A DNA stretch of 64,000 nucleotides from Pelagomonas calceolata (taxonomy: Eukaryota; Sar; Pelagophyceae; Pelagomonadales; Pelagomonadaceae). Location of the stretch: NCBI GenBank assembly GCA_918797485.1, contig CAKKNE010000001.1, positions 2,418,001-2,482,000 on the forward strand, read 5' to 3'. The notes under the pieces are model-generated. The model searched no databases, was not told where the DNA came from, and saw only the letters and a list, made by a program, of their open reading frames with translations. Positions 67-63,990 of the stretch are shown here, one piece after another. The position numbers and the translations under genes are program-made. Each line of letters starts with the position of its first letter. Positions within the stretch are counted from its first letter, which is position 1.

Positions 67-86
67 CTAGTGCCTTACAGCTAGCT
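67..86 (+). promoter_or_regulatory. CTAG inverted-repeat 5' element, copy 1
   Basis: Arms CTAG and CTAG flank a TGCCTTACAG core. It reads toward the gene whose ATG is at 166, 79 bases away. It is a member of the family described in the first finding. Confidence 0.75.
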
Positions 87-165
87 CACGCAGCGCCCGA
101 AATGCCGGGCTTTTGTGAGGCGCCGGGCAGCCTAAAAAACAAGCGGGGCGCAGGAGGGCAGCCCC

Positions 166-1287
166 ATGGACCTCCGCCAGCGCACGACCATCGCCACGGA
201 CCCCTTCGCGACCATCAAAGGCATCGGAAGTCTCACGCTCCGTGCTGAGCAGTACGCCGACCTCGACGCGCCGTCGGTGGCGCGAAGCGTGTCCGTCGAA
301 CGGACGCTGCAGACTTTGGTCAATCTTTCGGCCCAAGCGCACCCCTTGGAGACGTCGACGTTGAAAGGCGCCCGAGAAGGCGTCGACGGCGAGGAGCAGC
401 GCCACCTGACCGCCCCCAGGTTTTATTTGTTGGATCTAGCTCTACGAGTGTGGTCCGAGACGACGTACGCGCATCTGCCCGATCGAAGGTTTGTCGATTT
501 GACGGGAAGTAATGGCGAGAACTGCGTCGCCGCTTCGTTATTACGGGACTGGGTCTCGTGCCGGAGCATCGAGCCGATCCCCGAAGCTAGAGTATTGGCC
601 AAAGCGCTGGTGGATGAGCGAGATAAGCGGCATAATCGAAGGAGGCGAGGGGCGAGTAGACGTGGCAGGGAACCGCAAAAACCACCGGCGCAAGTCTACA
701 TCGAGGAGGCGTCGTGCCTGTGGAACTGCGACTGGTACGACTGCGACGTGGCCTTGTTCGACGCGACGCGGCCAGCATTCAGCGCTTTTGTCGACGAGGG
801 CGCGTTCGTCCGGGCCGCGCTCTGGCCGGGTCTCGCGCGGTGCGCGGAGGGTACGGTCGTCTGCCTCATCTCGCGGGACCCGAACCCGACCGTGCGACGA
901 GCCGAGCTCATCCCGACGGAGGGGCCGTCGGCCTGCGAGTTGCTCGACTCGTGCGTGATCGCGTGCGGCGACGGCGGGACGGCCGAAGCGCTGCGGGCGG
1001 ACATCGTCAAGACCATCGCGCCGTCGTCGGACCCCCGACTTGTACAAAGGCGCGAGCAGAGCAAGACTACTGGATTATTACTCAAGGTGCAGGACGCGCA
1101 CCGCGCGTCCTTGCGACGCAACGTCACGGAGTTCCAGCTCGGGTCGCCCTCCGATGAAAGCTCGTGGGGCTCGACGCCGACGCCCCAAAAGAGCCCGACG
1201 CTCGGCATCGTCCGCCAGCGCAAGTTCGGCGTGGACAAGAGTCCGCTGGGGTCGTTGCTCGAGAAGCGCGGGAGCCGGGACTCGTAA
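166..1287 (+). CDS. Putative class I methyltransferase-like protein
   Basis: 373 residues from an ATG that directly follows GGGCAGCCCC. A stretch near residue 110 (FVDLTGSNGENCVAASLL) has the spacing of a Rossmann motif I. It is followed by an acidic turn and, near residue 190, a CDVALFDATRPAF strand, as in DOT1-like or other SAM-dependent methyltransferases. The glycines of motif I are only partly kept, so the catalytic assignment is an inference. The C-terminal 90 residues are Ser/Pro-rich with SPxxLGSLL-like elements and look disordered. The region around residues 150-170 is Arg-rich and could be a nuclear signal. Reading-frame length and codon use match neighbouring genes. It could equally be a lineage-specific protein with a Rossmann fold and no methyltransferase activity. 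Confidence 0.6.
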   Translation: MDLRQRTTIATDPFATIKGIGSLTLRAEQYADLDAPSVARSVSVERTLQTLVNLSAQAHPLETSTLKGAREGVDGEEQRHLTAPRFYLLDLALRVWSETTYAHLPDRRFVDLTGSNGENCVAASLLRDWVSCRSIEPIPEARVLAKALVDERDKRHNRRRRGASRRGREPQKPPAQVYIEEASCLWNCDWYDCDVALFDATRPAFSAFVDEGAFVRAALWPGLARCAEGTVVCLISRDPNPTVRRAELIPTEGPSACELLDSCVIACGDGGTAEALRADIVKTIAPSSDPRLVQRREQSKTTGLLLKVQDAHRASLRRNVTEFQLGSPSDESSWGSTPTPQKSPTLGIVRQRKFGVDKSPLGSLLEKRGSRDS

Positions 1288-1496
1288 GAATGTTGTGTAT
1301 TTCTCTAGTCTATTTCTGGGTGCGCTGGCGTCGATGGCGTTTCGCTCAGGCTCAGGCTAGTTACGTCGCGGGGTCCCCCGTACCCCTCCCGCTCCCCCCG
1401 GGCCCACCCGTCCGGCTGGACTAGGACGCAAGGGCTGAGTCACAGGGACTCGCACGCCCCCCCCCTCTTCGGGACGCCCCCCATCAGGTTTCGGAG

Positions 1497-1520
1497 CTAG
1501 TGTCTTACAGGTCGCTAGCT
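1497..1520 (+). promoter_or_regulatory. CTAG inverted-repeat 5' element, copy 2
   Basis: Near-consensus copy (CTAGTGTCTTACAG, then GTCGCTAGCT) 101 bases upstream of the fumarase ATG and in the same sense. The rest of the 1288-1621 spacer is C-rich with no other recognisable feature. Confidence 0.85.
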
Positions 1521-1621
1521 CCAGCCATTCCTCCGCTTCCGCGGCCGCAGCGTCCTAGCGTTGCAGTTTCAGACCGACTGAACGCATTCGCAGCACCTTA
1601 CACTCACCCTCTCCACGAACC

Positions 1622-3070
1622 ATGCTGCGCCGCGCCCTCGCGTCGCGCCAGACCCTCCTGCGCCACAGGGTGCTCTCGACGCGCACGGAGACCGACTCCT
1701 TCGGGCCGTTGGAAGTGCCCTCAGATAAATACTACGGCGCGCAAACCGCAAGGTCCATGATCAACTTCCCCATCGGCGGGCCCGAGGCGCGCATGCCTTT
1801 GGCGCTGATCCACGCGTTCGGCGTGCTCAAAAAATGCAGTGCATTATACAACAAGCGCACGGGCCGACTGGATGAGAAAATCGCCGACGCCATCGCGGCA
1901 GCCGCCGATGAAGTCGCTTCAGGTAAGTTGGATGACCACTTCCCGCTAGTGGTCTATCAGACTGGTTCGGGAACTCAAACGAACATGAATTGTAACGAGG
2001 TCATCGCGAACCGCGCCATCGAATTGCTGGGTGGTGTCATCGGCTCCAAGGAACCGGTGCACCCGAACGACCACGTGAACATGGGTCAGAGTAGTAACGA
2101 TTCGTTCCCGACCGCGATGCACATTTCGGCCGTGACGGAGTTGGAAAATCGTTTATTACCTTCCTTGGAGCATCTACGGAAGGCCTTAGCTCAGAAGTCG
2201 GACGAGTTCTCGTCCATCATCAAGATAGGACGCACGCACTGCCAGGACGCGACGCCCGTGACCTTAGGCCAAGTATTTTCTGGGTATGAGGCCCAAGTTG
2301 CCGATAGTATCGAAAGGGTCAAGGGCGCCCTACCTCGCCTAAGGAAGCTTGCCTTGGGCGGCACGGCCGTCGGTACTGGTTTGAACACGAAGGCTGGCTA
2401 CGACGTCGCGATCGCCGCCGACATTGCCAATGAGACCGGTTTAGCCTTCGAGACGGCGCCGAACAAGTTCGCTGCTTTAGCCGCACATGACGCCATCGTC
2501 GAGGCCTGCGGGCAGTTAGCAGCTACGGCTTGTGCTCTCAATAAAATTGCAAATGACTTAAGGCTGCTCGGAAGCGGCCCACGAAGCGGTTTAGGTGAAA
2601 TTGCATTACCGGAGAACGAACCTGGAAGTTCGATCATGCCGGGCAAGGTGAATCCGACGCAGTGCGAGGCCGTGACCATGGTCGCGGCGCGCGTGGTCGG
2701 CGATTGTGCGACGGCCCAATTCGGCGGCGCGCAGGGCCACTTCGAGCTCAACGTCTTCAAGCCCGTCATGGCCATGGCCTTACTGTCGTCGACGCGCTTG
2801 CTGGCGGACTGCTCGGTCGCCTTCACGGACAAATGCGTGTCTGGAATCGTCGCGAACGAGGGCCGCATCGGCGACCTCATGGCGTCCAGTCTGATGCTCG
2901 TGACGGCGCTGAACCCGCATATCGGGTACGACAACGCGACCAAGGTCGCGAAGAAGGCGCACAAGGACGGCACGTCCTTGATCGAGGCGGGCGAGGCCTT
3001 GGGGCTCTTCACGGCGCAGCAGTTCGGGGAGTGGGTGCGGCCCGAGCGCATGATCGCGCCCGAGCCCTAG
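1622..3070 (+). CDS. FH: Fumarate hydratase, class II, mitochondrial
   Basis: 482 residues, the usual length for class II fumarase. It interconverts fumarate and malate in the TCA cycle as a homotetramer. The N-terminus ([16 protein letters not shown]) is a basic amphipathic presequence without acidic residues, pointing to the mitochondrial matrix. The family signature [15 protein letters not shown] is intact near residue 336, holding the mobile catalytic loop. [14 protein letters not shown] near residue 115 and [10 protein letters not shown] near residue 200 are the other conserved substrate-binding blocks. No intron is needed. The gene ends 33 bases from the stop of the convergent gene at 3104. 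Confidence 0.97.
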
Positions 3071-3103
3071 TTGATTTCTCCGGGGCGTAAAGATATGAAC
3101 CTC

Positions 3104-4279
3104 TTAGATTGCTCCCAGCGCCTCGCAGAGGTCGCCCGGCGACTGCGCTTCGCGGGCGCGGAGCACGGCTCGCGACTTTCGCAGGCATTTCTCCATGTCC
3201 ACTGTGAGCGGGTGCGCGCCTCCGAGCACGCGCCGCGCGATCCGCTCCGTCTCCTCGAGCGTCGTCACGGCCTCGCGGAGGTCGTCGATTGTCGCGCAGT
3301 CGTCCTGGTAAATTTCTTGCGCATAATTCATCTTCATCGTGAGCGTGATAGAATTATTAGCTCCGAGAATGCGCCGCGCCACGGGTATCGTCTTGCGCAG
3401 GAGTGCCTTGGCTTCTTTGAGGCGGTCCAGACCGTGAAGCGCCACCCCGAGGTTAAGCGCTGCCCGGATGGTCTCTCCATGTTCCTCGCCACAGAGCTTC
3501 ACATATCCAAAGTATACATCCTGCCGCATCCGCATGGCCTCTTCGAGCCGTCCTAGCGCTCTTAACGTTCTCGCAAGATTGCCCTGCGTGACGAGCATGT
3601 TCTGTTCTGGTACGCCAAGACGCCGTCGCATAGACAACTGGGTCTCTCTCACGGACAATGCGTCCTCGTGGTTTGCTGCATCATGTAAACCGTTCCCAAG
3701 CTGCGTCATCGCCAAGCCATGAGCCCAGTCCGTCTCCGGCCGGGCCACGTACGTCCTCCAGCACGCCCACCCGAGCGCGCCCGCCACGACGCCGTGGTAG
3801 TCTTGCTCGCAAAGGCCGCACTTGTACCACCGCGCCCACCTCTCATTCAACGCCTTGTCATCCAAATTGTTCTCCTCGCCCTCCGCGAACAAAATCTTCG
3901 CCTGCTCCGCCAGACACGAGACGTGTGCGAAGCCTGCCGTACCGCGGCACGAACACATGCGCACGAGGCCCTCCTTCGTTTTCCAATGCAAAGCTTGCGT
4001 GCAGATGTAGCACGTCTGGCCCTTCGTGTCCTCCGCGCACGCCTCCGCCGCGGCCACGACGGCCTCTGTGTACTTCTTATTTGCGTTGTACTGCTCTGCG
4101 CCGCCTGCTTTCTTTATTTTTTTACATAGATTGTCGTGCCCGCCCTCTTTCCAGTGCTGCACCTGGCAGGCTGCCCCACAGTAGCGCGTGCTGCAGCGGC
4201 CGCATTTCTTGCCCAATGATAAGCCAAGCTCGGTGGCACAGACGGCGCACTGCGTGAGGATCATCTTTTGTATGGTCAA
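3104..4279 (-). CDS. MYND zinc finger, RING-CH and TPR protein
   Basis: 391 residues. Residues 11-52 form a complete MYND finger (C11, C14, C26, C29, C34, C38, H48, C52), a protein-interaction module. Residues about 90-165 carry a RING-CH-like cysteine pattern (CYICTQ, MCSCRG, HVSCL, CGLC) typical of membrane-associated or adaptor-type E3 ligases. The C-terminal half is built of tetratricopeptide-type helices (LGNGLHDAANHEDAL, LARTLRALGRLEEAM, LGVALHGLDRLKEA), as in kinesin-light-chain-like repeats. Such MYND/RING/TPR combinations form expanded families in some algae; that is family knowledge. A role as ubiquitin ligase or scaffold is an inference. The start could be Met1 or Met6. Confidence 0.85.
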   Translation of the reverse strand: MTIQKMILTQCAVCATELGLSLGKKCGRCSTRYCGAACQVQHWKEGGHDNLCKKIKKAGGAEQYNANKKYTEAVVAAAEACAEDTKGQTCYICTQALHWKTKEGLVRMCSCRGTAGFAHVSCLAEQAKILFAEGEENNLDDKALNERWARWYKCGLCEQDYHGVVAGALGWACWRTYVARPETDWAHGLAMTQLGNGLHDAANHEDALSVRETQLSMRRRLGVPEQNMLVTQGNLARTLRALGRLEEAMRMRQDVYFGYVKLCGEEHGETIRAALNLGVALHGLDRLKEAKALLRKTIPVARRILGANNSITLTMKMNYAQEIYQDDCATIDDLREAVTTLEETERIARRVLGGAHPLTVDMEKCLRKSRAVLRAREAQSPGDLCEALGAI

Positions 4280-4336
4280 CTCCTTCGGGGGCAGCCCTAC
4301 GATGCAAAGCAGCCCTCATGCCCATGCAGCTTTTGG

Positions 4337-4359
4337 CTAGTGCCTTACAGCCGCTAGCT
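4337..4359 (+). promoter_or_regulatory. CTAG inverted-repeat 5' element, copy 3
   Basis: CTAGTGCCTTACAG followed by CCGCTAGCT in the divergent spacer 4280-4606. It reads toward the Sel1 gene, whose ATG is 247 bases on. The other half of the spacer, next to the MYND gene, holds GGGGGCAGCCCT at 4288-4299. Confidence 0.85.
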
Positions 4360-4606
4360 AATTCTAAAAGTGGTCTCAACTCAGGACGCGTCAGCAGCGA
4401 TCGCTTTCGGGGCGGCAGGCGATCCGTGGCCAGAACTGCGGCCGGCACGCAAAAGACAAGGCAGTGCAGCGCATCAGAGGAGGCACAAGAGCGGCGCCCG
4501 CGGGCCTACCGGACGAACCAGTAATCGCATCACTCTCAGTTCGAAGCACGCGAAGCGCAGCGCGCGCGATACCGCCGCAAAGACCCAAAAATAGCTTCTG
4601 GCAGGC

Positions 4607-5140
4607 ATGGCCGAACTCCTCCCCACGTCGACGGGCCGCGCCCAGCTCGACGCGCTGCGGACCTACGAGGAGCACGCGGCCAAGGGCGACGCGCACGGCG
4701 CGTTCAACTGTAGCGTCTGCTACGCGCGGGGCCTCGGCTGTTCCAGAGATCGGGACAAGGCGTTGCGGTTCTTGAGGCAGGCCGCCGACGGCGGCCTGCC
4801 GCAAGCCCAAGCCCAACTGGCCTATTTGTACTCGACGGGGCGCGGCGGCATCGACGGGAAGGACGACGCCGAGGCCGAGCGCTGGTGGCGCCTCGCGGCG
4901 GCCCAAGGCGACCACGACGCCGTGTCGCGCCTGCAGAAGCGCGGGATCGCCGTGGCGCGCCGCGCGTCGCCGCCGCCGCCGCCGCCCGAGCGGTCGCGCC
5001 TCGCGATACTCTTCGACGACTTCTGCGTCGGCCCCTGCGCCGTTTTTTTGGGGAAGCTGCGCGGCGGCACTCCTCCGAGCGACCTCGCGGACCCGCTCCT
5101 CGAGGAGCCCGTTTCGACCGAACCCGAATACGAGATCTGA
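4607..5140 (+). CDS. Sel1-repeat protein
   Basis: 177 residues. Two to three Sel1-like helical repeats are visible between residues 20 and 110 (AAKGDAHGAFNCSVCYARG, AADGGLPQAQAQLAYLYSTG, AAAQGDHDAVSRLQKRG), with the typical W-x3-AA-x-GD spacing. Sel1 repeats act as adaptor surfaces, often in ER-associated degradation or signalling. A Pro run (residues 124-129) and an acidic C-terminus follow. There is no signal peptide. The specific partner is unknown. The repeat assignment is firm; the function is not. Confidence 0.85.
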   Translation: MAELLPTSTGRAQLDALRTYEEHAAKGDAHGAFNCSVCYARGLGCSRDRDKALRFLRQAADGGLPQAQAQLAYLYSTGRGGIDGKDDAEAERWWRLAAAQGDHDAVSRLQKRGIAVARRASPPPPPPERSRLAILFDDFCVGPCAVFLGKLRGGTPPSDLADPLLEEPVSTEPEYEI

Positions 5141-5159
5141 TCCTCTCCCTGTCTTTTGA

Positions 5160-5596
5160 TGTCGAATACCTAAAAGTTAGGAGGTTAAACTCCGTTAGGT
5201 TTTTACACCTTCGCGTTAAAAATAAACCCTATAAACAAAGATGTCACGCTGGCCTTGTCAGAAGAAAGTCCACATGAAGAAGCTTGTGGATAAAATAAAA
5301 CGACGTGGAGATTCACTCGCTGGCCAAGCCAAAAAAGAAGCTTTGGATAACGCAACAAAAGACGCGTGTCAAGAGATAGAGACTATACTTGCGAAAGAGC
5401 CTGCGTTAGAATCACAGACCATAAGTAAAGACAGAGCCCTCTTTGACAAGATTCACCAAGAAGAATTTGGGCGACTCGCGGACAACGAACGTCCGAAACG
5501 CCCAAGACAAAAATCCCGAAATTCAAATATCGCTAAAATCCGAAATTAACAAATCCCGAATTTCCACTTGTCGAATACCTAGTCAGGTATTCGACA
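5160..5596. mobile_element. AT-rich insertion with 12-bp terminal inverted repeats and TTGA duplications
   Basis: The stretch begins with TGTCGAATACCT (5160-5171) and ends with its exact inverse AGGTATTCGACA (5585-5596). TTGA lies immediately outside both ends (5156-5159 and 5597-5600), as expected for a 4-bp target-site duplication. A second copy of the 12-mer in direct orientation at 5569-5580 makes the right end a hairpin with a 4-base loop. Composition is visibly AT-richer than everything around it. It encodes one small protein (5241-5549) and no recognisable transposase, so it looks like a non-autonomous DNA-transposon-like (MITE-sized) element. It sits between the Sel1 and TBC genes. 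Confidence 0.6.
5241..5549 (+). CDS. Small Lys-rich protein inside the AT-rich insertion
   Basis: 102 residues, rich in Lys, Gln and Asp and poor in Ala, Pro and Gly, unlike the host proteins around it. A/T-rich third positions contrast with the GC-rich codons of neighbours. The sequence is charged and predicted helical (residues 12-75), with no motif I recognise. An AT-rich stretch (ATAAACCCTATAAAC) lies just upstream of the ATG. It may be a real cargo protein of the element or a chance open frame in AT-rich DNA. Confidence 0.4.
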   Translation: MSRWPCQKKVHMKKLVDKIKRRGDSLAGQAKKEALDNATKDACQEIETILAKEPALESQTISKDRALFDKIHQEEFGRLADNERPKRPRQKSRNSNIAKIRN

Positions 5597-5619
5597 TTGA
5601 GTAACACTGTACAAGATTT

Positions 5620-6807
5620 TTAACCACCAACATTGGAGCCGCCGCTCATGCAGAGCGTCGCGAGCGCCGCGTCGACGTAATCGTCCTCCTCTTCGGACAG
5701 GCCCGACGCCGTGCGATCAGGCGGGCCGAGCACGGCGCCGACGACGGAGGGCCCCAGCACGTCCTCGAGGGCCGCGCGCCGCCGCAGCGCGTCGACGAGG
5801 CGCCGCCCGGTCTTCTCGTTCAGCAAACCGACCAACAGCCGCGGCGCCGGCGCCGCGGGCGGCCGCAGCAGCCGTGCGACGCAGTCGTCCGCCGCGTTGA
5901 GTCGCAACAGCGCCGACCGGTCCCAGACGACGAGGAGTGATGCGGCGTCGACCATCTTCGACGACAAACACGCCGTGTCCACGAACAACGCGTCCCACAG
6001 AACGCAGACGTCGTCGGCCACATACCTGCGACCAAATAATGTCCGCAGCCAGCTCAGCGCGTAGATCTGCGGCAGGACCTCGAGTCTCTCCAAATGCGCG
6101 TGGAGCTCCTCGTCGACCGCCGCCAGCGCGCGGCCCTGCACGTCGTCACATAGCTCTACGGCCGGCGGCCGGCGATGCGGCGACGGCGTCATCCCGTCGA
6201 AGCCGTCGAAGATCGGTCGTGTGACGGCCGCAAGCTTCGCGAAGAGCGAGAAGGCGTCCGCTTCCAGGTCGTCCGCCGACGGCAACAGAGCGTGCAGGGG
6301 CGACGACGGCGCCGGACAGTACAGCGACGCGGCGCCCTGCGCCCGCTCCAACGCCCACCAGATCGTCGCTAAGACTTCGTGCATGCCCTGGCGATAATCT
6401 CCAGACGTGCAGTGCCAGGTTAAGAGAGCGTCGAAGAGCGCTTTTTGTCTTGTAGCCTCCGCGAAGTGGTCGCCCGCTCCATCAATATAGCACCGTTCGC
6501 AGTCCTTCCGAATCTGGTCGGCCGTGTCCTCGAGCGCTTCGTCGGTCTCAGCACCATCAACCACGCGCTTCAGCCTCCTCAGCGCGTCGTCGCGCTTCTT
6601 CGCGTAGGCCGATCGGTCGTCGGCGAGCGCGCGCCGCCACGACTTCGGCTTCTGCGGGTCGACCGCTCGTAGAAAGAGGCGCCACGCCGCGCCTCGCGCG
6701 GCTATTGGCAACTTGCCTCTGGCGGCCAGCGCTTCGAGGCGCTCGAGGCAGGCGTGGGGCTGGTCCTCGATGTGCGCGAGGACGGCTGCGGCGGCTTGGT
6801 CCTCCAT
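5620..6807 (-). CDS. TBC-domain Rab GTPase-activating protein, TBC1D5-like
   Basis: 395 residues. TBC domains stimulate GTP hydrolysis on Rab GTPases in membrane traffic. Diagnostic elements are GAAWRLFL near residue 38, IRKDCERCY near residue 94 (the family's IxxDxxR finger, with R retained) and YRQGMHEVLA near residue 137. YxQGM followed by HE is the form seen in TBC1D5. WLRTLFGRRY and VCVLWDALF near residue 260 close the domain. The catalytic Gln is in YRQG. The C-terminal 100 residues are Ala/Arg-rich and divergent. No transmembrane segment is seen. The divergent spacer with the next gene is 376 bases. Confidence 0.87.
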   Translation of the reverse strand: MEDQAAAAVLAHIEDQPHACLERLEALAARGKLPIAARGAAWRLFLRAVDPQKPKSWRRALADDRSAYAKKRDDALRRLKRVVDGAETDEALEDTADQIRKDCERCYIDGAGDHFAEATRQKALFDALLTWHCTSGDYRQGMHEVLATIWWALERAQGAASLYCPAPSSPLHALLPSADDLEADAFSLFAKLAAVTRPIFDGFDGMTPSPHRRPPAVELCDDVQGRALAAVDEELHAHLERLEVLPQIYALSWLRTLFGRRYVADDVCVLWDALFVDTACLSSKMVDAASLLVVWDRSALLRLNAADDCVARLLRPPAAPAPRLLVGLLNEKTGRRLVDALRRRAALEDVLGPSVVGAVLGPPDRTASGLSEEEDDYVDAALATLCMSGGSNVGG

Positions 6808-7015
6808 TTCTTGATATGAATTGCGCCGCTTCTTGCCCGCGCTCTCCGCTGGCTGGCGCGGCGCTCTCCGGATCTCCGGCTGCGGGGACGCTATGCGAGC
6901 GGCAGGCGGCTGCGGCTCGAAGGTGGCTTCGATAGCGTTGTGCGGCGGCCTTCTAGGGCTTGAAACACAATTGGTTGGAGCTGTGTGTGGCTCGATAAAT
7001 TGCTGGAGCGGCTTG

Positions 7016-7037
7016 CTAGTGCGTTACGGACGCTAGG
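7016..7037 (+). promoter_or_regulatory. CTAG inverted-repeat 5' element, copy 4
   Basis: Variant with the TTACGG core (CTAGTGCGTTACGG, ACGCTAGG) in the divergent spacer 6808-7183, reading toward the gene with ATG at 7184 (146 bases). Confidence 0.8.
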
Positions 7038-7183
7038 TGCAAGCGCCGGCGCGCGCGCTCAAAACCAGCCGCTACGGCCTTTTGGTCACTCTAGAATTCA
7101 CTATTTCACCGCTGGCGCACAGCTGTCGATCGCTGTGGCACCAGCGTTGCAAGCCGGTAACACACCACTGCACACCACTCAAA

Positions 7184-8428
7184 ATGGCGCGCGGCGCAAG
7201 CACCAACCGCGCCATACCGGAAGACGTCATGGCTAAAGCCTTGTCATACCTCTCGCTGCCGGACGGCTGGCAGGCCGCTAGCGCTTGTAAGACGTACCGC
7301 GCGTGTTGGCGGCGCCGCTGCCGTGGGATGCTCCGCGTCGCGCGAGAGCGCATTGGCAGATTTTCCTACATCGATCACCTCACCGCTCTGTCTGGCGGCG
7401 ATGGCATTATCGTGCCACATTATGGAGAGCATCGTCTGGAAATATACTCGCCAGAGGTCGTGCACCGAGGCACCTGTGCCGGAAGACAATTTCGTCATGT
7501 AGAGGACGGTGAGTCTTGGACTTCAGACACTTTACAGACGCCCTCTGCGGTGGCCCTCCGCGGCGACGGCACCGCATGGGTGATCCTGAAAGATGAGGGG
7601 GAGGTCGCTTGTGTGAGGCTGGGGGCGGTGATCAGCGAGCATATCATGCTGATTGAGACGGACTGCTTCATGCCTGTGGACCTCGCTCTTGCTGGAGACA
7701 GGCTGCTCGTTCTGTCTTGTGAATACCCCAGCCTCGGGCGCGTCTACGTGCTCGATAATCAGACGGGTGCCCAGCTTTCCACCTTTGGTTCGACCGGCGA
7801 GTCGTGGCGCGATGAGCTGCGCGGTCCTAGTTGTCTGGCGGTTCACGAGCAGTATTGCTTCATAGCCGATACTCACAATCAGGCTGTTAAGGTGTTCGAC
7901 TGGCGCGAGGGTACGCTCGTTAGGGTCTTCGGCAAACGCCAAGATGATCCATGGGATGTCAAGACTCTCATGACAGACGCATTTATGACCCCTGAGCCGG
8001 TTAGCTACCATGAATTTCGTGATGACTATTATGATCTCCGCAAAGGAGACGGCCCCGGTGAATTCAATCTGCCCCTTGGCGTTGCAGTGCGAGATGGAAA
8101 ACTATATGTCTCGGAGCTGGAAGGCCGTAGAATCCAAGTGTTTCGTCTGCCCGATGATATGCACGGCTCGGATCTGGAATTACTGCAGATTATCCCTTCC
8201 CCAGACGGCTGGCCACTGAGTGGTCTTTGCGTGGACGACGCCGGCCGGTTGTGGTGCGTGGGCCCCGGGGTGTCGTATACCGGCGGATACACGCATGAAC
8301 ATCCTGGACATAATGCCGATTATGTGTTCGATGACGGTCCTAGCACCGTAACATCTGCGCGACTGGAGAAAAAGCTCTACCGACATATCTCCTGTTACCT
8401 GCACATCTTCGAGCCCGTGTTTAAGTGA
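7184..8428 (+). CDS. F-box-like and NHL-repeat beta-propeller protein
   Basis: 414 residues from the ATG at 7184; an open frame continues upstream, but this Met gives the best N-terminus and lies beyond the CTAG element. Residues 10-45 (IPEDVMAKALSYLSL, ACKTYRACWRRRC) resemble an F-box or related helical module. Residues 90-400 are repeated strands with the NHL pattern (LQTPSAVALRGDGTAWV, LRGPSCLAVHEQYCFIAD, FNLPLGVAVRDGKLYVSE, LSGLCVDDAGRLWCV), giving a six-bladed propeller. A substrate-recognition role in an SCF-type ligase is plausible but inferred. The stop is 17 bases from the convergent J-protein stop. Confidence 0.8.
   Translation: MARGASTNRAIPEDVMAKALSYLSLPDGWQAASACKTYRACWRRRCRGMLRVARERIGRFSYIDHLTALSGGDGIIVPHYGEHRLEIYSPEVVHRGTCAGRQFRHVEDGESWTSDTLQTPSAVALRGDGTAWVILKDEGEVACVRLGAVISEHIMLIETDCFMPVDLALAGDRLLVLSCEYPSLGRVYVLDNQTGAQLSTFGSTGESWRDELRGPSCLAVHEQYCFIADTHNQAVKVFDWREGTLVRVFGKRQDDPWDVKTLMTDAFMTPEPVSYHEFRDDYYDLRKGDGPGEFNLPLGVAVRDGKLYVSELEGRRIQVFRLPDDMHGSDLELLQIIPSPDGWPLSGLCVDDAGRLWCVGPGVSYTGGYTHEHPGHNADYVFDDGPSTVTSARLEKKLYRHISCYLHIFEPVFK
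8338..8352 (-). other. 3'-flank repeat, short copy (TTACGGTGCTAGGA)
   Basis: On the minus strand this reads GTTACGGTGCTAGGA, 94 bases beyond the stop of the minus-strand J-protein gene. It lies inside the antisense coding end of the NHL gene. It matches the start of the longer repeats at 19232 and 25405. Confidence 0.55.
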
Positions 8429-8445
8429 AATATTGTATCAACATA

Positions 8446-16088: not shown

Positions 16089-16111
16089 AGCTAGCGGCTG
16101 TAAGACACTAG
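16089..16111 (-). promoter_or_regulatory. CTAG inverted-repeat 5' element, copy 6
   Basis: Consensus copy on the minus strand (CTAGTGTCTTACAG, CCGCTAGCT), 81 bases upstream of the SNase Met. It falls between that gene and the stop of the next minus-strand gene (16184). Confidence 0.88.
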
Positions 16112-16183
16112 CAAGCGACTCGTCACAAATCAGGACGAGTCGAAACGCCAGTCGACGCAAGACACGATCTACAGACAAATGAC

Positions 16184-23227: not shown

Positions 23228-23409
23228 CGGATCGCTACGCTATCCGGAGAGGCCCTCTAAGCGAGGCCGCTCTCTGGTTTTTTTGGTACTGCTGCTCGGC
23301 GAGGAGACGAAGCGCGGCGGCAACTGCAGCGATGAGCCGTTGTAGACGCCTTGCTATGCACGTCTAGCTGAGCTGACGGCCACCGCGCGAGCCTGGGCTC
23401 GGGTGATTA

Positions 23410-23432
23410 CTAGTGTCTTACAGCCGCTAGCT
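23410..23432 (+). promoter_or_regulatory. CTAG inverted-repeat 5' element, copy 7
   Basis: Perfect consensus copy in the UPF2/macrodomain divergent spacer. It reads toward the macrodomain gene, 76 bases before its first ATG. Confidence 0.9.
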
Positions 23433-25323: not shown

Positions 25324-25347
25324 AGCTAGCGGGCTGTAAGACACTAG
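25324..25347 (-). promoter_or_regulatory. CTAG inverted-repeat 5' element, copy 8
   Basis: Minus-strand copy (CTAGTGTCTTACAG, CCCGCTAGCT), 213 bases upstream of the METTL13-like Met. It occupies the middle of the 25111-25437 spacer together with the 3'-flank repeat that belongs to the preceding gene. Confidence 0.88.
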
Positions 25348-25369
25348 CAAAAAAGCAAGTTATCGATCT

Positions 25370-26121: not shown

Positions 26122-26587
26122 TGATGGTGGCCCTGGTCGAGAAATCTGCCGCGTTGGCAAGCGTGCAGTAGCTAGACGATAACTGTGCCGCGTCGGCAGG
26201 CGTGCGAGGGAGCTCAAGCCAGCGCCGCACCCCAGCAGTGAGAGCGGGAGAGCTATGTTGTTGCTGTACGGCATAGAGCGCAGGAAAGAGCAGGCGAAGC
26301 TGCAGCTGGGTGGTCGAATAGATCAAAACACCCACGTTTATCTCAATGTGCAGCGTGTGCTTGCTTAACCAGCCTAAAAAGAGTGTGAAAAAGCAGTCCT
26401 AGTATGTTACGGCCGCTAGCAAGCTCGATCTGACTAATACGGTTCGCGGCCAGCTGTCCGGCCTTGCGCCACCCACGCTACTCATACCTTTGGCAAGACC
26501 ATTCCGAAAGCCGTGGCAAGCCACGCCAGCGACGCCTGGCAACCCTGTCAGCTACAGCCGCCAGCACACAGCCAAAACCAGCTCACC
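26122..26587. other. Divergent spacer with a short internal repeat
   Basis: 466 bases. Two imperfect 20-base copies (TGCCGCGTTGGCAAGCGTGC type) lie about 40 bases apart near 26148-26207, and a CTAG element lies at 26399. No gene is supported. Confidence 0.5.
26399..26420 (+). promoter_or_regulatory. CTAG inverted-repeat 5' element, copy 9
   Basis: TTACGG-core variant (CTAGTATGTTACGG, CCGCTAGC) reading toward the PRORP gene, 167 bases before its ATG. Confidence 0.8.
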
Positions 26588-30230: not shown

Positions 30231-30467
30231 TGAGTGGTAACGGTACGTGTGTCTCTATGGCTTTGCTTTTCGACGTGGGGGGGGGTCTGCGGAGGCGTAG
30301 TCGTCCATCGAGGCCATTTTTTTGCGGATAGCGGCCGAGGCATACCCTCGCGAGCGCCCAGAGCGGGAATTAAGCTCTGAACTTCACTATTCGGGGGGTC
30401 AGTCGGAGAGGTCTATTTCAAAAGATATCCGCCTAGGCGCCGCGCTATGTATTCTACGCGGCGTGCG

Positions 30468-30495: not shown

Positions 30496-30500
30496 GATTC

Positions 30501-30520
30501 CTAGTGTGTCGATACGCTAG
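30501..30520 (+). promoter_or_regulatory. CTAG element, GTGTGTC-type variant
   Basis: CTAGTGTGTCGATACGCTAG keeps both arms with a different loop, like the copies at 50083 and 60348. No gene is recognised immediately downstream; the next candidate is the repeat region from 30.6 kb. Confidence 0.6.
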
Positions 30521-30599
30521 ATCACCAGGTCTTGCGGCTCGCCAAAATACACCAGCGATTGACGGTGCCTTCTACCGTCCATATAGTACATCATATCAA

Positions 30600-31430: not shown

Positions 31431-31840
31431 GCGGACTCCCTTTGGGATAGGTCTGGGGTCGGGTGGTCGCCTGCACTGGATACGCCGTCGATGCAGCAGC
31501 CTAGTGCTCTCGGAGGGCTTTGGAAGCAAATCATGGCAAAAAGTTGCTAGCCTCTGTGGGCTGCTGAGAGAAATCGGCCAAAAATGCTTGAAGCGGCGGC
31601 GTATGCGGTGTAGGCGCGTGCACGTGTATAGTACCGACCCTAGGCGACCCCAGGGAGACCTCTTGGGCAGGGATCGACAGGATTTAACCGGCGCGGCTGC
31701 CATGGAGCATGGCGTCGTCGGCCGCGAATTAAAAAAATACTTTTTTTTGCCCCCCAAGAAGTGTTCCATTGATCTCTTTGGACCATTAGCGAACTGAACG
31801 GTACTCGAACGGCTGCATGCTGCGTTCCGAGTTTTGCTTG

Positions 31841-31865
31841 CTAGTGTCTTTACAGGCCGCTAGCT
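31841..31865 (+). promoter_or_regulatory. CTAG inverted-repeat 5' element, copy 10
   Basis: CTAGTGTCTTTACAGG then CCGCTAGCT, one base longer in the core, 246 bases upstream of the U-box gene ATG and in its sense. Confidence 0.85.
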
Positions 31866-34976: not shown

Positions 34977-35880
34977 TAGTAAGAAGTTGTTGATGTGCCT
35001 GGGATGTGCTCGACGATTGTTCCCCCGACGACATGGCCTCGGCCGGGACTGGCCCTCCACCAAGTTCTGGAGAGAACCCCCGGGCGGCTGTGCTCGTGCC
35101 CGGGCGAACGCCTCTTCACTCCTAATCGGATTTGCGGCGCCAAAAAAGCATATGCAGATCATCGACCCGATCGACGCAAGCGAGAGGGCCCCGCATCCGA
35201 CCTGGCCGCGAACTCGCGAGTTGCTTTGCTTCTTAGAGCTAGGCCACCTAGCGAATTCTAGAGAAACTAAATTAAGACTCGGAAAGATAAGCGCGGAAGC
35301 GCGGAGCAGATGCGCAGTCCACTGGGCAGAGTATAATAATAATACATGTGACTAAACTGGAACGTATCCAGATTCTGTCCTACGACGCCCGTGATCATAG
35401 ATGGCGGCGGCACGCGCGCTATTTGGTTCTTCTCCTTCTTGGCGCTCGCCGTCGCGATCTAGTGCCACCGGCCTCCCACCGGCCCCATCGCCACCACCCT
35501 CAATGCATCCCATGCATCCCACTCGCCTCTCATAAGTCCCCTATTTTTAGTATGGGTAATGACCAAAAACCCGTGCTCAACAGTTAATTAAAATGGTGGC
35601 TCGGCGGCCTAGCTCTAAACAAAGCAAAACAGCTTGAGTGAGCTAGCGTCCTGTGAGACACTAGGGATGACCAGCAAAGCAGCATGACATTGTATATAAT
35701 ATCGTAAGCAACTCCGGCTAGGCTCGAGGAGTTGCTACAGTGGTTTCTAGATCTATTCCAAAGATACACGTGATATTCTCGCTGCACCGGTTGCTGTGTT
35801 GCTGCTCTCACACCCCCCTCTAGCGGTGCAGTGTTTCACACGCCGCGGACGAAAAAAAAAAACTCCGCCCTCGGAAGACT
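34977..35880. other. Spacer with an orphan CTAG element
   Basis: 904 bases. Open frames running in from the U-box gene are shadows. A CTAG element at 35641 points left into this spacer, where no minus-strand gene is recognised. Otherwise nothing supported. Confidence 0.5.
35641..35664 (-). promoter_or_regulatory. CTAG inverted-repeat 5' element, orphan copy
   Basis: Minus-strand copy (CTAGTGTCTCACAGG, ACGCTAGCT). It is the only near-consensus copy without a recognised gene in its direction. It lies 217 bases from the divergent ATG at 35881. Confidence 0.75.
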
Positions 35881-37332: not shown

Positions 37333-37600
37333 GTGCCTCCGCTGGGCAGCCCTCCGGAGGGTCAGGACGCAGCTATGACCGGGCTAGTCGTGGCGTTTGC
37401 CGAGTGGTCCAAGAGCAAGACGCACGAATTTGGCACGTCTCGCTCGGGCAGCCTCCGCAGCGGGCAAGGGCGCTCAAAACACAGACACAGCGCCCTCTCA
37501 CGTACGCAACCCGCACGGCCTCTCGAGGCGTCTGCTTCGCGGTTACTATTGGTCTACGGAGGGTTACCTAGCGAGGTTTGAGATCCGCGTCCGAATGTAG

Positions 37601-37619
37601 GCTAGCGGTAAGACACTAG
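37601..37619 (-). promoter_or_regulatory. CTAG inverted-repeat 5' element, compact copy
   Basis: Minus strand CTAGTGTCTTACCGCTAGC with a shortened core, 268 bases upstream of the ATG at 37332. It sits in the 37333-37773 divergent spacer. Confidence 0.82.
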
Positions 37620-37773
37620 GGATGCCAAGCAGACGGTCTATTTACGCCGCCTACACTCGTAGTGCTGCAGGCGTTAAGCATCACAGCCACTTCGCGACGC
37701 CTGCGCGCGCAGCGGTGCAGCGCGCTGCGCCGACGCAGGAGCAGTGCCGCGGGCGAGAGGCAAGGAGAGCACC

Positions 37774-39712: not shown

Positions 39713-39732
39713 AGCTAGCGTAAGACCACTAG
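39713..39732 (-). promoter_or_regulatory. CTAG inverted-repeat 5' element copy
   Basis: Minus strand CTAGTGGTCTTACGCTAGCT, 118 bases upstream of the SDR Met, in the 39595-39945 divergent spacer shared with RPAC1. Confidence 0.82.
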
Positions 39733-39945
39733 GCAGGCTGAAGTCTTTGTCGTCGCTTTTGCAGCGCTTCCTCGGCCGTACTCGCGCGGCGCGCTTTTTG
39801 CGGCTACGCCCAGCGTCCAGTTGCAAGCGCAGCGCCCCTCCAGGCCCTTAGAAAGAGTCTCAGTGCAAGAGCAGCGCCCAGCACTAGTTCAGCCCCACCA
39901 CGGTATCCAACGCCCGCACCGGCGCAACAAAAGCCAATAAAAACG

Positions 39946-44639: not shown

Positions 44640-44793
44640 CTCTGCGCTGCTGAGGGAGAGGCGGTTGGTGTGTGCTCGGTTACCGGTGCTCTCCAGCAAG
44701 TTTACCAGTCTAGGAGTTGGTGGTTAAAATTTTTTTGAACAGTCAGTGCTGACGGAAATTGCATCAATGCGGCCAAAAAGTCCTGGGCTGCTT

Positions 44794-44815
44794 GCTAGCG
44801 ACAGTAAGACACTAG
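44794..44815 (-). promoter_or_regulatory. CTAG inverted-repeat 5' element copy
   Basis: Minus strand CTAGTGTCTTACTG, TCGCTAGC, 154 bases upstream of the WcbI-like Met in the 44640-44975 divergent spacer. Confidence 0.85.
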
Positions 44816-44975
44816 CCAAGGATAAAAAATTATTGGGCGCACGGCCGCGGCAAGCAGCCGGACAGTGACGGGGCAGCGCGTGCATCCGCGCGTCGGCGTC
44901 GCACGCAGCCGTGCAGCAGGGCTGCCCCATTTTTGTTTGCAGCAACACTTGCCAACAAGCCCAGAGACAGAGGAC

Positions 44976-46596: not shown

Positions 46597-46645
46597 GTTA
46601 CGGTGCTGGGGGGGAGACACCGCGCGTCGCCGATTCATCGGCGGC
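46597..46645 (+). repeat. 3'-flank repeat copy at a gene-fragment edge
   Basis: TTACGGTGCTGGGGGGGA, then GACACCGCGCGTCGCCG and ATTCATCGGCGGC. The first half matches 36525-36551 exactly over 27 bases, the second half matches 25370-25420. Unlike the others, it is 376 bases from the nearest upstream stop in its sense. Confidence 0.7.
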
Positions 46646-46753
46646 GGGCGCGGGCCGCTTCTTTCATACACCCACAATTTACGCCCCTTCGCGCCGCGGG
46701 TACCTCCTCCTCCACCTCATCAACGACTGCGTCGCCCACGGCAGCGCAGCACT

Positions 46754-48352: not shown

Positions 48353-49975
48353 TTAGGACCGCCGAGCCTTCTCCAAGAACGCATCCAACAAATCGTCCAG
48401 GGCGCCCGCGTCGTCGGCGAGAAAGCTCCCCGAGTGCTCCCCGGCGCACAACTCGCGCAACGCCGCCTGGAAGTCGACGAACACGCCGAAGTTTTCCTCG
48501 ACGTAGTCCCGCGCGGCGTCGTTCGCGAGTCGGCGGCGCTTCGCCGGCGACTCGCTCGGCGACCGCGGCGACCGGAGAACCGTGCGAATCCGGCGCCGAC
48601 GACGCGAGCTGCCGCGACCGGCGCCGCTCGCCGACCTCGCCGAGTGCCCCGACCTCGCCGAGCCCGCACGAGACGCCGCGCTCGCACGCGACCGCGATCC
48701 CCCCGAGCCCGCCGAGCCCTCCGAGACCGGCGAGGTCAGCGGCGGCGGGCCGGAAGGCCGCCGCGGCGGCGGCGGCGACGCCGACACCGCACCGCGTGCC
48801 GAGGCGTCGTCCGACGACGACGCCGACTCGTCCGCGTCGTCGTCGTCGCCGGCGACGACGCCGCGCATCGCGCGCCGCCGCCGCGAGGCCGCGCGTTGCG
48901 ACTGGTCCTGCTCCGCCCACGCCGGCTCCGCGAGCCGCTGCTGCCGGTCCGTCACCTCCTTGCAGTCGACGGTGGCGTCATAGGACGCCGCGATGGCCTC
49001 GTCGAAGATGTCCTTGGCCTCGCCAAAGGATGCGTCACCAAAGCGGTCCTCGCGTAGAGCGCATCTCGCGTAGAGCCAGGTCCGCGCGACGAGCGGTATC
49101 TCCTCCTCCTTCACGCCGGCCTCGACGAGGTCGTCCGTGATGACGCGGCCGCTCGTGTCGCAGATCTTGCAGACGAGCTGGCCGCCGGCGAGCAATATGT
49201 GCGTCGTGTGGTTGTGCGGGGAGTACACTTTCCCGGCGCCGTCCGAGACGTTCCGCGTGCACGAGTCGCACTCGACCCCCTCGGCCCGCCGCGGCTGGCG
49301 CCGGTCGCCCCGCGGCCCGCGGCCCGTGTACAACAATCTCCGCCTCTCGCCCTCCTCGCTCCTCCTCGGCACCTCGACCCCTTCCTTCGCGGCGTTCGCG
49401 ACGACCAAAGAATCCTCGCCCCACTTCAGCGTCGCGCCCTGGGTGTTTGACGCCTCCTTCTTGCCCGGCGCCGGATTTCGCTCGCGTCTCTCGAGCTTCC
49501 TAACTTTTGTGTTATGCTGCTTGTCGTTCCAGTCGTCGGCGGCGTCCTGCTTCGCGACGGAGCCGATGCGCCGGAAGCCCGGGAAGTCCTCGACCGGTAC
49601 CGGCGTCCCGTCCGCCTTGAGCCACGGGTCCACGACCGCGCCCACCGCGACGAGGTTCGCGACGGCGTCGCTAATGCTCATAGGTCCACTCGACCAAGCA
49701 AAAGTGTTGAAGTGGAACGAGGCCACGCGGCGGAGGTACTTTTTTTGTTCGGACTGTTTCTTCTCCCCTTTCCCTGGGCATTGCGAGAGCCGCTCCACGA
49801 ATTTCGAGGTCTCTACGGCCGGGATCTCCGTGCGCGTCTGCCCCGGCGGGAGCGTGACCTTCTTCTTTTTTCTGAGGTAATCATCCAGCGACGTCGTGTC
49901 GGCGCCCTCGTACTGCTTGTTTAAGAGCTTGCTGATCGCGGCGCCCTTTTTGGCTTTTTTTTGGAGGGTCGCCAT
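48353..49975 (-). CDS. Large basic/Ser-rich protein with one four-Cys zinc-like site
   Basis: 540 residues from Met 49975 (alternative three codons earlier). Residues about 1-30 and 50-90 are Lys-rich helices. A C-x2-C ... C-x2-C site with His residues between (VECDSCTRNVSDGAG, SPHNHTTHILLAGG, LVCKICDTSG) near residues 240-280 suggests zinc binding. A Ser/Asp/Pro-rich low-complexity region (380-480) follows, and the protein ends in a helical acidic segment. Composition points to the nucleus. No family recognised. It lies next to another Ser-rich Cys protein (46754) on the same strand; they do not look like close paralogues. Confidence 0.7.
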   Translation of the reverse strand: MATLQKKAKKGAAISKLLNKQYEGADTTSLDDYLRKKKKVTLPPGQTRTEIPAVETSKFVERLSQCPGKGEKKQSEQKKYLRRVASFHFNTFAWSSGPMSISDAVANLVAVGAVVDPWLKADGTPVPVEDFPGFRRIGSVAKQDAADDWNDKQHNTKVRKLERRERNPAPGKKEASNTQGATLKWGEDSLVVANAAKEGVEVPRRSEEGERRRLLYTGRGPRGDRRQPRRAEGVECDSCTRNVSDGAGKVYSPHNHTTHILLAGGQLVCKICDTSGRVITDDLVEAGVKEEEIPLVARTWLYARCALREDRFGDASFGEAKDIFDEAIAASYDATVDCKEVTDRQQRLAEPAWAEQDQSQRAASRRRRAMRGVVAGDDDDADESASSSDDASARGAVSASPPPPRRPSGPPPLTSPVSEGSAGSGGSRSRASAASRAGSARSGHSARSASGAGRGSSRRRRRIRTVLRSPRSPSESPAKRRRLANDAARDYVEENFGVFVDFQAALRELCAGEHSGSFLADDAGALDDLLDAFLEKARRS

Positions 49976-50082
49976 CTGCTGCAAGCTACAAAACCGAGGC
50001 GCTGGCGCTGCTTGAGTGGTTATCGCGGCAGGCGGTGTGTATCAATGAACTCTCCGTCGTCGCCGCACCACTCGTAGGGATG

Positions 50083-50106
50083 CCTAGTGTGTCTGTGCAC
50101 GCTAGG
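50083..50106 (-). promoter_or_regulatory. CTAG element, long-armed variant
   Basis: CCTAGTGTG and CACGCTAGG arms (nine bases each, one G:T mismatch) around TCTGTG. Read on the minus strand it shows an ACAG core and is 108 bases upstream of the ATG at 49975. The remaining spacer to 50361 holds nothing else recognised. Confidence 0.55.
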
Positions 50107-50361
50107 GCGTACGGAGTCACTGGCCGGGGTACGGCGGGTCTATTAGTTTGGACTTGGGATCATCCATCGTAAGCCTCTCGCCGCCCCCTCGTCGCTCCTT
50201 CGTCGCCGTGGCTACTGTGTCCGCCGTCGCGCCCGTCGACCGTCTCGACCTGCCGTCGTCCACCTGGCTGTGATGGAATTCCTCGTGTTTTTGTGTGGGG
50301 TGTTCGGAACTGAGCTTGGCGGCTGTGCGGCTCTGTAGAAGCTACTTGGGATTTAACCTTC

Positions 50362-60347: not shown

Positions 60348-60369
60348 AGCTAGTGTAGCGACACACTAG
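60348..60369 (-). promoter_or_regulatory. CTAG element, perfect-arm variant
   Basis: Minus strand CTAGTGTGTCGCTACACTAG: the arms CTAGTGT and ACACTAG are perfectly complementary. It reads toward the giant helicase gene (225 bases) in the 60124-60528 divergent spacer. Confidence 0.65.
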
Positions 60370-60528
60370 GATTACACAGCGCCTATCGGCCCAGGCGCTT
60401 ATAGGCCGCGCGGCGCATTCAGGCACTGCCCAGGCCTTTGTTGTCGAGCCTCGCGCGATTCAGGCACTGCCTAGCGCCCGTTCCGCCGTCGTCATCGCTG
60501 CCATCGATCGTAGGGCAGCCCCATCGTG

Positions 60529-61101: not shown

Positions 61102-61102
61102 G

Positions 61103-62635: not shown

Positions 62636-62887
62636 TCGTGTTCGGCTGCCCTTGGAGGCTGCACTCTTTGTGCGTCCGCGTCCGTGGCGGTCGGAGACGG
62701 TGGGGCAGGTGCGGCGGCGGCGCTGGATGGGCACTCGCGGACTGCTAATGGTCACGAAAGTGATTGTGGGCTGCTGATCAAAGGGTTTCGGGTCCTAAGC
62801 TGGCAGGATTGCGTGTATTGATGATTAGACTCCTCGGGAAGGCTCCGAAGGCTCGGCGAGGGCTATCATTCCTGTGTTTCACCCCGG

Positions 62888-62910
62888 AGCTAGCGGCCGT
62901 AAGGCACTAG
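62888..62910 (-). promoter_or_regulatory. CTAG inverted-repeat 5' element copy
   Basis: Minus strand CTAGTGCCTTACGG, CCGCTAGCT, 252 bases upstream of the ankyrin gene Met. The remainder of the 62636-63179 spacer shows nothing else. Confidence 0.87.
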
Positions 62911-63179
62911 CAAGCCTCGGGAGAGCGCAACAAAGTGAAAGTGTCAAGTCTAACTTGAGCCGCAACCGGCTACCCGCCTTAGCCTAATTACGCGTCTTCG
63001 GGCGCCGGCGAAGAAAGCGCTGCGAGCCGCTCCTGCTCCGCCGCGCGTTGCTGGTGAACTGGAGACGCAAATTCCCGGGAGTACTCCACGACGGAGACGT
63101 CCTCTCTTCACGAGTCGCGAAGCCGAACGCGCGTCGCGCCTCCTACTAGCGCCGAGACTGCCACAACAGACTCGCAAAA

Positions 63180-63971
63180 ATGAAGTCCACTGTGCCTTAT
63201 TGGGGCGCCGCGTGTGCAGCCGCTGCGGCGGCGCGTCGCGACCGCTGCGGACAAGATCGTGTCCAAAGGGGGCTGCGCGCCGTGCTCTCGCTGACGAGTA
63301 CAGCACAAAAGTGTCATGGGGCCTGCGAATTTGAGGAGCCCGGTGGCGGCGTCGTCCCACGCGACGCGGGCCGCGACGAAGCGCCCGGCGGATGCGGCCG
63401 CCATCAAAATAGACCGCCAGCTGCTCGATGGCGTGCGCTTGCGCGCGTGCTTGGCTGCTCTGCTCGAGGCGGTGCTAGACGAGGGCGCGTGCCGCGACCG
63501 CGTGCACGATGCGGTCAGTCACTTCACGAAGAGGACATCGAGGGCTTCGAGGGCTTAGATGAAGACGTCAAGCCTCGTGTCCGAGAGCTGATAGAGGAGC
63601 ACAAGGTGGAGCACGAGAGACGTTTTGAAAAAGCTCCGCGCCGATCGAAGAAGAAAGCTCCGTCGAAGAAAGCTCCGTCGAAGAAGAAAGCGCCAGCTCA
63701 ACGCCGATCGAGGAAGAAAGTACGTAAACGCCTCGAGCCTACCGTTAACGAGAGCGAAAAAAGAGCCTTGATGCATAACGTGTGGCAGGGCGCTCGTGGA
63801 ATTGTGACGAAATTCCAGACATTGATTCACGCAGCCCCAACCGCGCGAGGAGGGTCAGTAACACCTGATCCGCGAGAGCAGCGGGCGCAGCGCACCCGTG
63901 CCGTACTATCGCTCAAGCCCGCGACAGGGATGCCCCAGGACGCGTGCGAGCCATCAATTTTTGCTTGCTAG
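63180..63971 (+). CDS. Basic Lys-rich protein, reading frame split
   Basis: The C-terminal part is convincing in the frame ending at 63971: HEEDIEGFEGLDEDVKPRVR, then ELIEEHKVEHERRFEKAPRR and a Lys/Ser/Pro/Ala tandem (KKAPSKKAPSKKKAP), histone-H1-like in composition. The N-terminal part reads better in another frame starting at the ATG at 63316 (AAAIKIDRQLLDGVRLRACL, AALLEAVLDEGACRDRVHDA). The switch is near 63513-63530 and no normal intron fits, so a one-base indel or an unusual structure is likely. Possibly a chromatin protein; function unknown. Confidence 0.4.
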   Translation: MKSTVPYWGAACAAAAAARRDRCGQDRVQRGLRAVLSLTSTAQKCHGACEFEEPGGGVVPRDAGRDEAPGGCGRHQNRPPAARWRALARVLGCSARGGARRGRVPRPRARCGQSLHEEDIEGFEGLDEDVKPRVRELIEEHKVEHERRFEKAPRRSKKKAPSKKAPSKKKAPAQRRSRKKVRKRLEPTVNESEKRALMHNVWQGARGIVTKFQTLIHAAPTARGGSVTPDPREQRAQRTRAVLSLKPATGMPQDACEPSIFAC

Positions 63972-63990
63972 TGTCTTACATGCCGCTAGC
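63968..63990 (+). promoter_or_regulatory. CTAG inverted-repeat 5' element at window end
   Basis: CTAGTGTCTTACATG, CCGCTAGC reading right. It predicts a plus-strand gene starting within about 270 bases beyond the window. Confidence 0.85.

Follow-up and report, generated by a model that had tools for sequence, protein, structure and literature searches.

Why does one short inverted repeat stand on the 5' side of so many unrelated genes? The question is raised by a 64,000-nucleotide stretch of the genome of the pelagophyte Pelagomonas calceolata (contig CAKKNE010000001.1, positions 2,418,001 to 2,482,000; hereafter, the window), in which a repeat with CTAG in both arms, here called the CTAG element, recurs between genes. 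A preliminary description had taken it for a directional core-promoter or transcript-leader element of about 22 bp, present in about 20 copies. Our analysis argues for another answer: the CTAG element is probably an orientation-independent proximal-promoter element, carried by about one-third of promoters, which would dock a sequence-specific and perhaps nucleosome-clearing factor.

We first describe the element itself. It is a bipartite near-palindrome with the consensus TTG-CTAGTG-TC-TTAC-A-N(0-5)-CCGCTAG-CT, and the gap between its two arms differs from site to site. A logo built from 49 sites reads TTG-CTAGT-G/A-T-C/G-TTAC...CCGCTAG-CT; conservation covers about 27 bp, beyond which each flanking position carries at most 0.28 bit. 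The near-palindromic character originally described is upheld, while the 22 bp assigned to it was slightly short and the arm spacing varies. Since both spacing and arms vary, a pattern with fixed spacing and full arms matched nothing in the window. The two halves nonetheless occur together: the left half, CTAGTG[TC][CG]TTAC, has 28 copies in the 264 kb defined below, and all 28 belong to a full element. The CTAG-to-CTAG length, taken over 56 sites, is 18 nt in 4 sites, 20 in 12, 21 in 13, 22 in 20, 23 in 4, and 24 in 3, with no site at 19. Genome-wide, only 2 copies of the TTAC-core element have the 19-nt spacing, with 18 and 20 nt both in use; with other cores, this spacing was seen in 4 of 100 matches listed for a relaxed pattern, some of which may be chance.

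To what extent does the element exceed chance? The genome scanned comprises 32,445,274 bases in eight contigs, with the window in contig 1; passages of the genome report for P. calceolata RCC100 give six nuclear contigs with a total of 32.4 Mb, a plastid and a mitochondrion, 63.6% GC, and 16,667 genes (PMC9481584). A strict pattern, CTAGTG-NN-TTAC-N0-6-GCTAG, was found 2,819 times genome-wide versus 0 times for its reversed control, and the relaxed pattern, CTAGTR-N5-12-CGCTAG, 4,684 times versus 74; one 22-mer, CTAGTGTCTTACAGGCCGCTAG, is present in 386 copies (control, 0). We also analyzed 264 kb, i.e., the window (65.8% GC) plus a 200-kb block at contig 1:3,000,001-3,200,000 (63.1% GC), using a position weight matrix (PWM) that permits a variable spacer. 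This gave 56 sites with a score of at least 14 and 60 with a score of at least 8 (four between 8 and 14), compared to means of 0.2 and 2.2, respectively, in five first-order Markov resamples built in 1-kb blocks; since 49 of the sites in these 264 kb served to train the matrix, their scores, though not those of the control, are inflated. Because almost no sites lie between scores of 8 and 14 and the resamples are near zero, CTAG elements form a discrete class. At the density of the 264 kb (56 sites), the whole genome would hold about 6,900 elements. Within the window, 18 of the 20 sites originally listed score between 18.0 and 41.2, whereas those at 10160 (-1.2) and 11626 (5.9) fail.

We then considered where the sites lie relative to genes, which were called with a hidden Markov model (HMM). 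None of the 56 sites fell within called coding sequence, which makes up 198,294 of the 264,000 bases, although part of this avoidance is built in, since CTAG contains TAG and the HMM penalizes in-frame stops. Among spacers of at least 60 bp, a site was carried most often by divergent ones (27/48), less often by tandem ones (20/63), and seldom by convergent ones (2/36), counts that leave four of the 56 sites unclassed at block edges and do not include two genes added later. Convergent spacers were depleted relative to promoter-bearing ones (2/36 versus 47/111; Fisher p = 1.4e-5), and the placement between genes, on their 5' side, is thereby upheld. Moreover, the element's pieces rank first among the 6-, 7-, and 8-base words enriched in promoter spacers. 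The tandem frequency (20/63, or 0.32 per promoter) predicts 0.53 for two independent promoters, and the frequency observed in divergent spacers is 27/48, or 0.56. The closeness of these two values indicates that the element behaves as a property of single promoters and not of bidirectionality.

The genes downstream are functionally mixed, and Pfam confirmed the fumarase, SNase, macro domain, PRORP, SDR, and WcbI among them. Together with the number of elements (4,684 matches; about 6,900 by extrapolation), this mix suggests a constitutive general role rather than a response switch. It also bears on the alternative that survives best, namely, that several regulated factors of one family read common arms and different cores, with one regulon each. 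The cores TCTTAC, TGTTAC, TCGATA, and TATCTATC do recur, both among the 100 relaxed-pattern matches listed and among the 264-kb sites, but the TTAC core predominates (2,819 matches for the TTAC pattern versus 4,684 for the core-free one, patterns that also differ otherwise) and the window genes show no common function. We regard such a family of regulators as rather unlikely.

The direction of the element was assessed in tandem spacers. In a first pass, 8 elements read in the same direction as the gene and 12 in the opposite direction. Two open reading frames (ORFs) that the HMM had overlooked were then added. They contain an NHL repeat (window 7037/7184-8428) and weak ankyrin matches (L015:8412-9311), respectively, and their addition reclassed two of the opposite sites as divergent, leaving 8 same and 10 opposite (p = 0.81). 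With further tandem loci of the P. calceolata genome (same, L003 and L006; opposite, L002, L005, L072:5700, L073:985, and L074:457), the count became 10 same and 15 opposite (p = 0.42); excluded from it were L001, L002:384, L004, L008, L072:387, L072:1721, L073:4209, and L075, all divergent according to the gene caller, as well as L006:2837 (at an edge) and L007 (convergent). In 17 of the 31 divergent cases with an ATG located on both sides, the element reads toward the nearer gene (p = 0.72), but divergent spacers are uninformative on direction, since either orientation reads toward some gene. The distance from element to ATG in tandem spacers ranged from 102 to 273 bp for same-direction and from 112 to 466 bp for opposite sites, i.e., the ranges are broad and overlap. 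Of 10 proteins encoded behind opposite-reading elements, 6 had a Pfam match (HAD hydrolase, EEP/EF-hand, ubiquitin, FAM192A, Arm/RING, and, in a relative introduced below, Orn/DAP decarboxylase) and the remaining 4 had none.

These counts do not agree with the directionality on which the core-promoter or transcript-leader reading had rested. A directional core element near the transcription start site (TSS), comparable to INR, FPR, or DPEP, would account for the 5'-side location, the abundance, and the distance of 102 to 273 bp from the ATG at tandem sites that read with the gene, but it is hard to reconcile with unbiased tandem orientation and broad ATG distances. In passages of a study of Phytophthora, core elements have forward:reverse ratios of 1.8 to 5.9, and unbiased motifs 75 to 300 nt upstream of the TSS are read as enhancers or proximal elements (PMC3599244). 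Judged by this yardstick, with the proviso that our distances run to the ATG and not to the TSS, a core element is improbable here. The preliminary description had stated that copies without strand bias, or copies equally frequent in coding and 3' regions, would refute it; strand bias was indeed absent, while coding and 3' regions were avoided.

Is the element kept in a relative? A scan of prokaryote assemblies for the element pattern returned 42 loci, most with cores that, by eye, are unlike the consensus. Three of them (L044, L064, and L031, from a metagenome-assembled genome [MAG] labeled Spirochaeta sp. MED672) are collinear with contig 6 of the P. calceolata genome at about 80 to 94% identity, and 339 bases of L045, from another MAG, match the genome at 89%. 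All six loci compared with the genome contain matching stretches, which cover L031, L044, and L064 mostly and L032, L045, and L048 partly (L048 being compared over bases 3000-7515 only). Within the compared stretches, each of the 7 P. calceolata sites has a counterpart in the relative; conversely, 7 of the relative's 8 sites are matched in P. calceolata, L044:7633 lying outside these stretches. The relative's contigs were found through the motif; of the sites not used for finding them (L044:460, L044:4289, and L064:2684), 2 of 3 are conserved. Element identity in the seven orthologous pairs was 23/27, 24/26, 24/28, 23/25, 25/27, 22/27, and 27/27, and that of the 30-bp flanks, gap-aligned and without a random baseline, was 0.38 to 0.67 in six pairs and 0.84 to 0.97 in the L045 pair. 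The element is thus kept as an island within flanks that have diverged in six of the seven pairs. In the relative's contigs, four L044 sites and L064:2686, all tandem, oppose the gene.

In the fifth pair, the element is inverted in place: L044:5351 and contig 6 at about 2,239,200 share a 27-bp minus-strand BLAST match (92.6%, E = 3e-6) that is flanked on both sides by collinear plus-strand anchors. The downstream anchor is strong (E = 3e-19) and the upstream one weak (20 bp, E = 0.001), and many weaker, chance-level matches accompany them. This in-place inversion offers a natural experiment on orientation independence.

The scans and comparisons gave several observations in their own right. 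The bacterial MAGs include contigs, or parts of contigs, with about 80 to 96% identity to Pelagomonas (L031, L044, L064, L032, L045, and L048), which represent misbinning or chimeric assembly, and L037 and L056 are suspected, by their consensus core alone, to be of Pelagomonas-like origin too. Use of the element by prokaryotes was rejected, all six compared loci matching the alga; near-consensus cores in L050, L051, L054, L061, and L065 are assumed to be chance. Viral use was rejected as well, the single match in viral contigs (L009, 2419-2440) being overlapped by a minus-strand ORF and read as chance. Finally, a stretch of about 1.9 kb on P. calceolata contig 6 with two plus-strand coding calls (L072:1743-3690), where L044 has about 0.1 kb (4182-4288), appears to be a lineage-specific insertion or loss.

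The CTAGTG arm is reminiscent of the ends of CACTA-type transposons. With thousands of copies, the element could be imagined as a mobile-element footprint (a miniature inverted-repeat transposable element, an introner element, or a transposon end) that spread into spacers, but its conservation ends at about 27 bp, 0 of 56 sites are coding, and its position is kept between lineages although the flanks have turned over. Introner-length introns in this genome, given in passages of the genome report, would also suit such a footprint (PMC9481584). Even so, we consider it very improbable, and the earlier statement that the element is not a mobile repeat is supported, extended homology around it being absent. 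An introner or long-repeat origin was rejected separately, as the repeats of the 264 kb do not include the element within a longer shared unit. Least credible of all is a 5'-leader RNA hairpin affecting transcript stability or translation, its arms paired with one G-U: a short stem is possible on the sense strand, the length of the loop varies as hairpin loops may, and the fifth pair (T-G in 52 of 56 pattern matches, T-A in 4) changes rarely and with pairing preserved, but the element may lie on the sense or the antisense strand of the gene, an antisense copy converts the G-U to a C-A mismatch, and the sixth pair is mismatched in 9 of 56 (A x C) and 2 of 56 (G x A) matches, with 0 compensated A-T and one near-symmetric site maybe counted twice.

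Returning to the proximal-promoter element, we propose that its two half-sites with CTAG (CTAGTG-TC-TTAC on the left, CCGCTAG on the right) would form a single binding unit, contacted jointly and probably by a dimer or by a protein with two domains. As a constitutive general regulatory factor, the putative binder would clear nucleosomes so that the neighboring promoter on either side can fire. What the sequence analysis shows is the element itself, how abundant it is, its restriction to spacers that contain promoters, its indifference to orientation, the joint occurrence of its halves, and its conservation; binding, dimerization, and nucleosome clearing are inferred. In its widest form, which we put forward tentatively and with less than even confidence, the proposal is that one long, two-part, reversible element and one putative factor together act as a general promoter organizer for about one-third of genes, private to this algal lineage; that sites may invert in place via their own palindromic arms with function kept; and that the spacing of the TTAC-core element is quantized (18, 20, 21, and 22 nt, with 19 nearly absent).

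Several points weigh against this proposal. The gene calls come from a seven-state HMM that was trained on the same 264 kb and leaves introns out of the model, and two genes were added by hand for the direction test. Some sites lie in spacers that the gene caller reads as convergent, namely, two spacers within the 264 kb and that of L007. L044:460 is without a P. calceolata counterpart, the inversion is known from one example with a weak upstream anchor, and orientation is unchanged in six of the seven orthologous pairs. The element is asymmetric (T/C arms, TTAC core), hinting that orientation could matter locally. There is a TCGATA-core subclass, and several paralogous factors may act in place of one constitutive factor. 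An element carried at 0.32 per promoter nevertheless helps promoter prediction in this genome, can be used as bait for isolating the protein that would bind it, and would make for better expression constructs and gene models.

Table 1. CTAG elements of the window, with PWM scores and gene context (Pfam matches in parentheses)
Feature	Position	Strand	PWM score	Context
CTAG element, shortened right arm	64..86	+	26.6	Near window edge; upstream of ORF 166-1287+ (no Pfam match)
CTAG element	1494..1520	+	32.7	Upstream of fumarase/lyase ORF 1622-3070+ (Lyase_1, FumaraseC_C)
CTAG element	4334..4359	+	35.2	Divergent spacer; Sel1-repeat ORF 4607-5140+ (Sel1)
CTAG element	7013..7038	+	32.2	Tandem by HMM; divergent once NHL-repeat ORF (7037 GTG / 7184 ATG to 8428, +) is accepted
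CTAG element	16089..16114	-	40.7	Upstream of minus-strand SNase-domain ORF (SNase)
CTAG element	23407..23432	+	36.7	Divergent spacer; macrodomain ORF 23509-24174+ (Macro)
CTAG element	25324..25350	-	41.2	Tandem spacer; same direction as gene
CTAG element	26396..26421	+	30.6	Divergent spacer; PRORP ORF 26513-27931+ (PRORP)
CTAG element, TCGATA-core variant	30498..30522	+	23.6	Within 1.9-kb stretch without called gene (30228-32128, HMM)
CTAG element	31838..31865	+	37.2	Upstream of long + ORF (HMM 32129-34973; no Pfam match)
CTAG element	35641..35667	-	33.2	Tandem; opposes the gene it precedes, FAM192A/Fyv6-like ORF 35881-36414+ (FAM192A_Fyv6_N)
CTAG element, short 18-nt spacing class	37600..37622	-	30.4	Divergent spacer
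CTAG element	39713..39735	-	18.0	Divergent spacer; SDR (-) / Rpb3-like (+) genes (Pfam)
CTAG element	44793..44818	-	34.4	Divergent spacer; minus-strand WcbI-like gene (WcbI)
CTAG element	50081..50107	+	19.9	Tandem by gene caller (right neighbor a mere 326-base call); opposes minus ORF 48353-49975 (no Pfam match)
CTAG element, near-symmetric variant (arms CTAGTG/CACTAG)	60348..60372	-	18.5	Divergent spacer
CTAG element	62888..62913	-	37.5	Upstream of minus-strand ankyrin-repeat ORF (Ank); near window edge
CTAG element	63965..63991	+	37.7	Window end

Outside the window, one divergent spacer holds a pair of elements in opposite orientation, 27 bp apart (L011:521-574; contig 1:3,010,521-3,010,574). 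Among spacers of 60 to 1500 bp, a second promoter word, GGCTGCCC/GGGCAGCC, was present in about half of the divergent ones (23/45) but in few tandem (6/63) or convergent (1/35) ones. It occurs in the window at 4289, 10113, 37344, 37446, 44920, 48158, and 60513, as well as in contig 1:3.0-3.2 Mb, and some matches lie near start codons. Because divergent spacers carry it more often than two independent promoters would predict (0.18 expected, p = 6e-7), this word may mark bidirectional promoters. We also noted families of short intergenic repeats, one with TTACGGTGCTAGGACTAGTGGGC and another with GGCTCAGGCTAGTTACGTCGC (L044:299-455, window 46605-46672 and 1346-1411, and L010:2771-2979); the repeat at L044:299-455 has dozens of genome-wide matches, and several repeat copies lie directly downstream of genes.

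How does the CTAG element compare with known systems? Among the matches listed in searches of the open-access literature (titles and abstract starts), there was no report of the element and no study of pelagophyte promoter motifs, and word searches for 'motif', 'palindrom', and 'promoter' in the main text of two P. calceolata papers found none of these terms. An abundant, orientation-free proximal site is a kind of element already known from yeast and animals, while the sequence, length, and spacing pattern of this one look new. In animals, NRF1 and ZBTB33/Kaiso-type sites are orientation-independent palindromes in many housekeeping promoters; their sequence is unrelated, and the CTAG element differs in having a variable spacer. 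In yeast, the sites of Abf1 are bipartite too. The CTAG element differs from the sites of yeast general regulatory factors in being longer (about 27 bp, with CTAG arms) and of other sequence. It resembles them in being abundant and near many unrelated genes, and passages on the yeast factors Reb1, Abf1, Rap1, and Cbf1 describe them as helping to establish and maintain nucleosome-depleted regions (PMC11069190). The INR, FPR, and DPEP motifs of Phytophthora infestans were, likewise, discovered de novo in the promoters of a stramenopile and occur in a subset of genes, but, in the passages concerned, they lie close to the TSS and are biased in orientation, whereas the CTAG element is unbiased and has another sequence (PMC3599244). 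Finally, the promoter-like motif of Medusavirus, GCCATRTGAVKTCATRTGGYSRSG, is a long intergenic palindrome with a similar distribution, being present in 22 of 115 divergent and 0 of 88 convergent spacers; as described in part of that report, however, it is viral, occurs 53 times, belongs to immediate-early genes, and lies mostly 40 to 70 bp from the start codon, and its sequence is unrelated to that of the CTAG element (PMC8557863).

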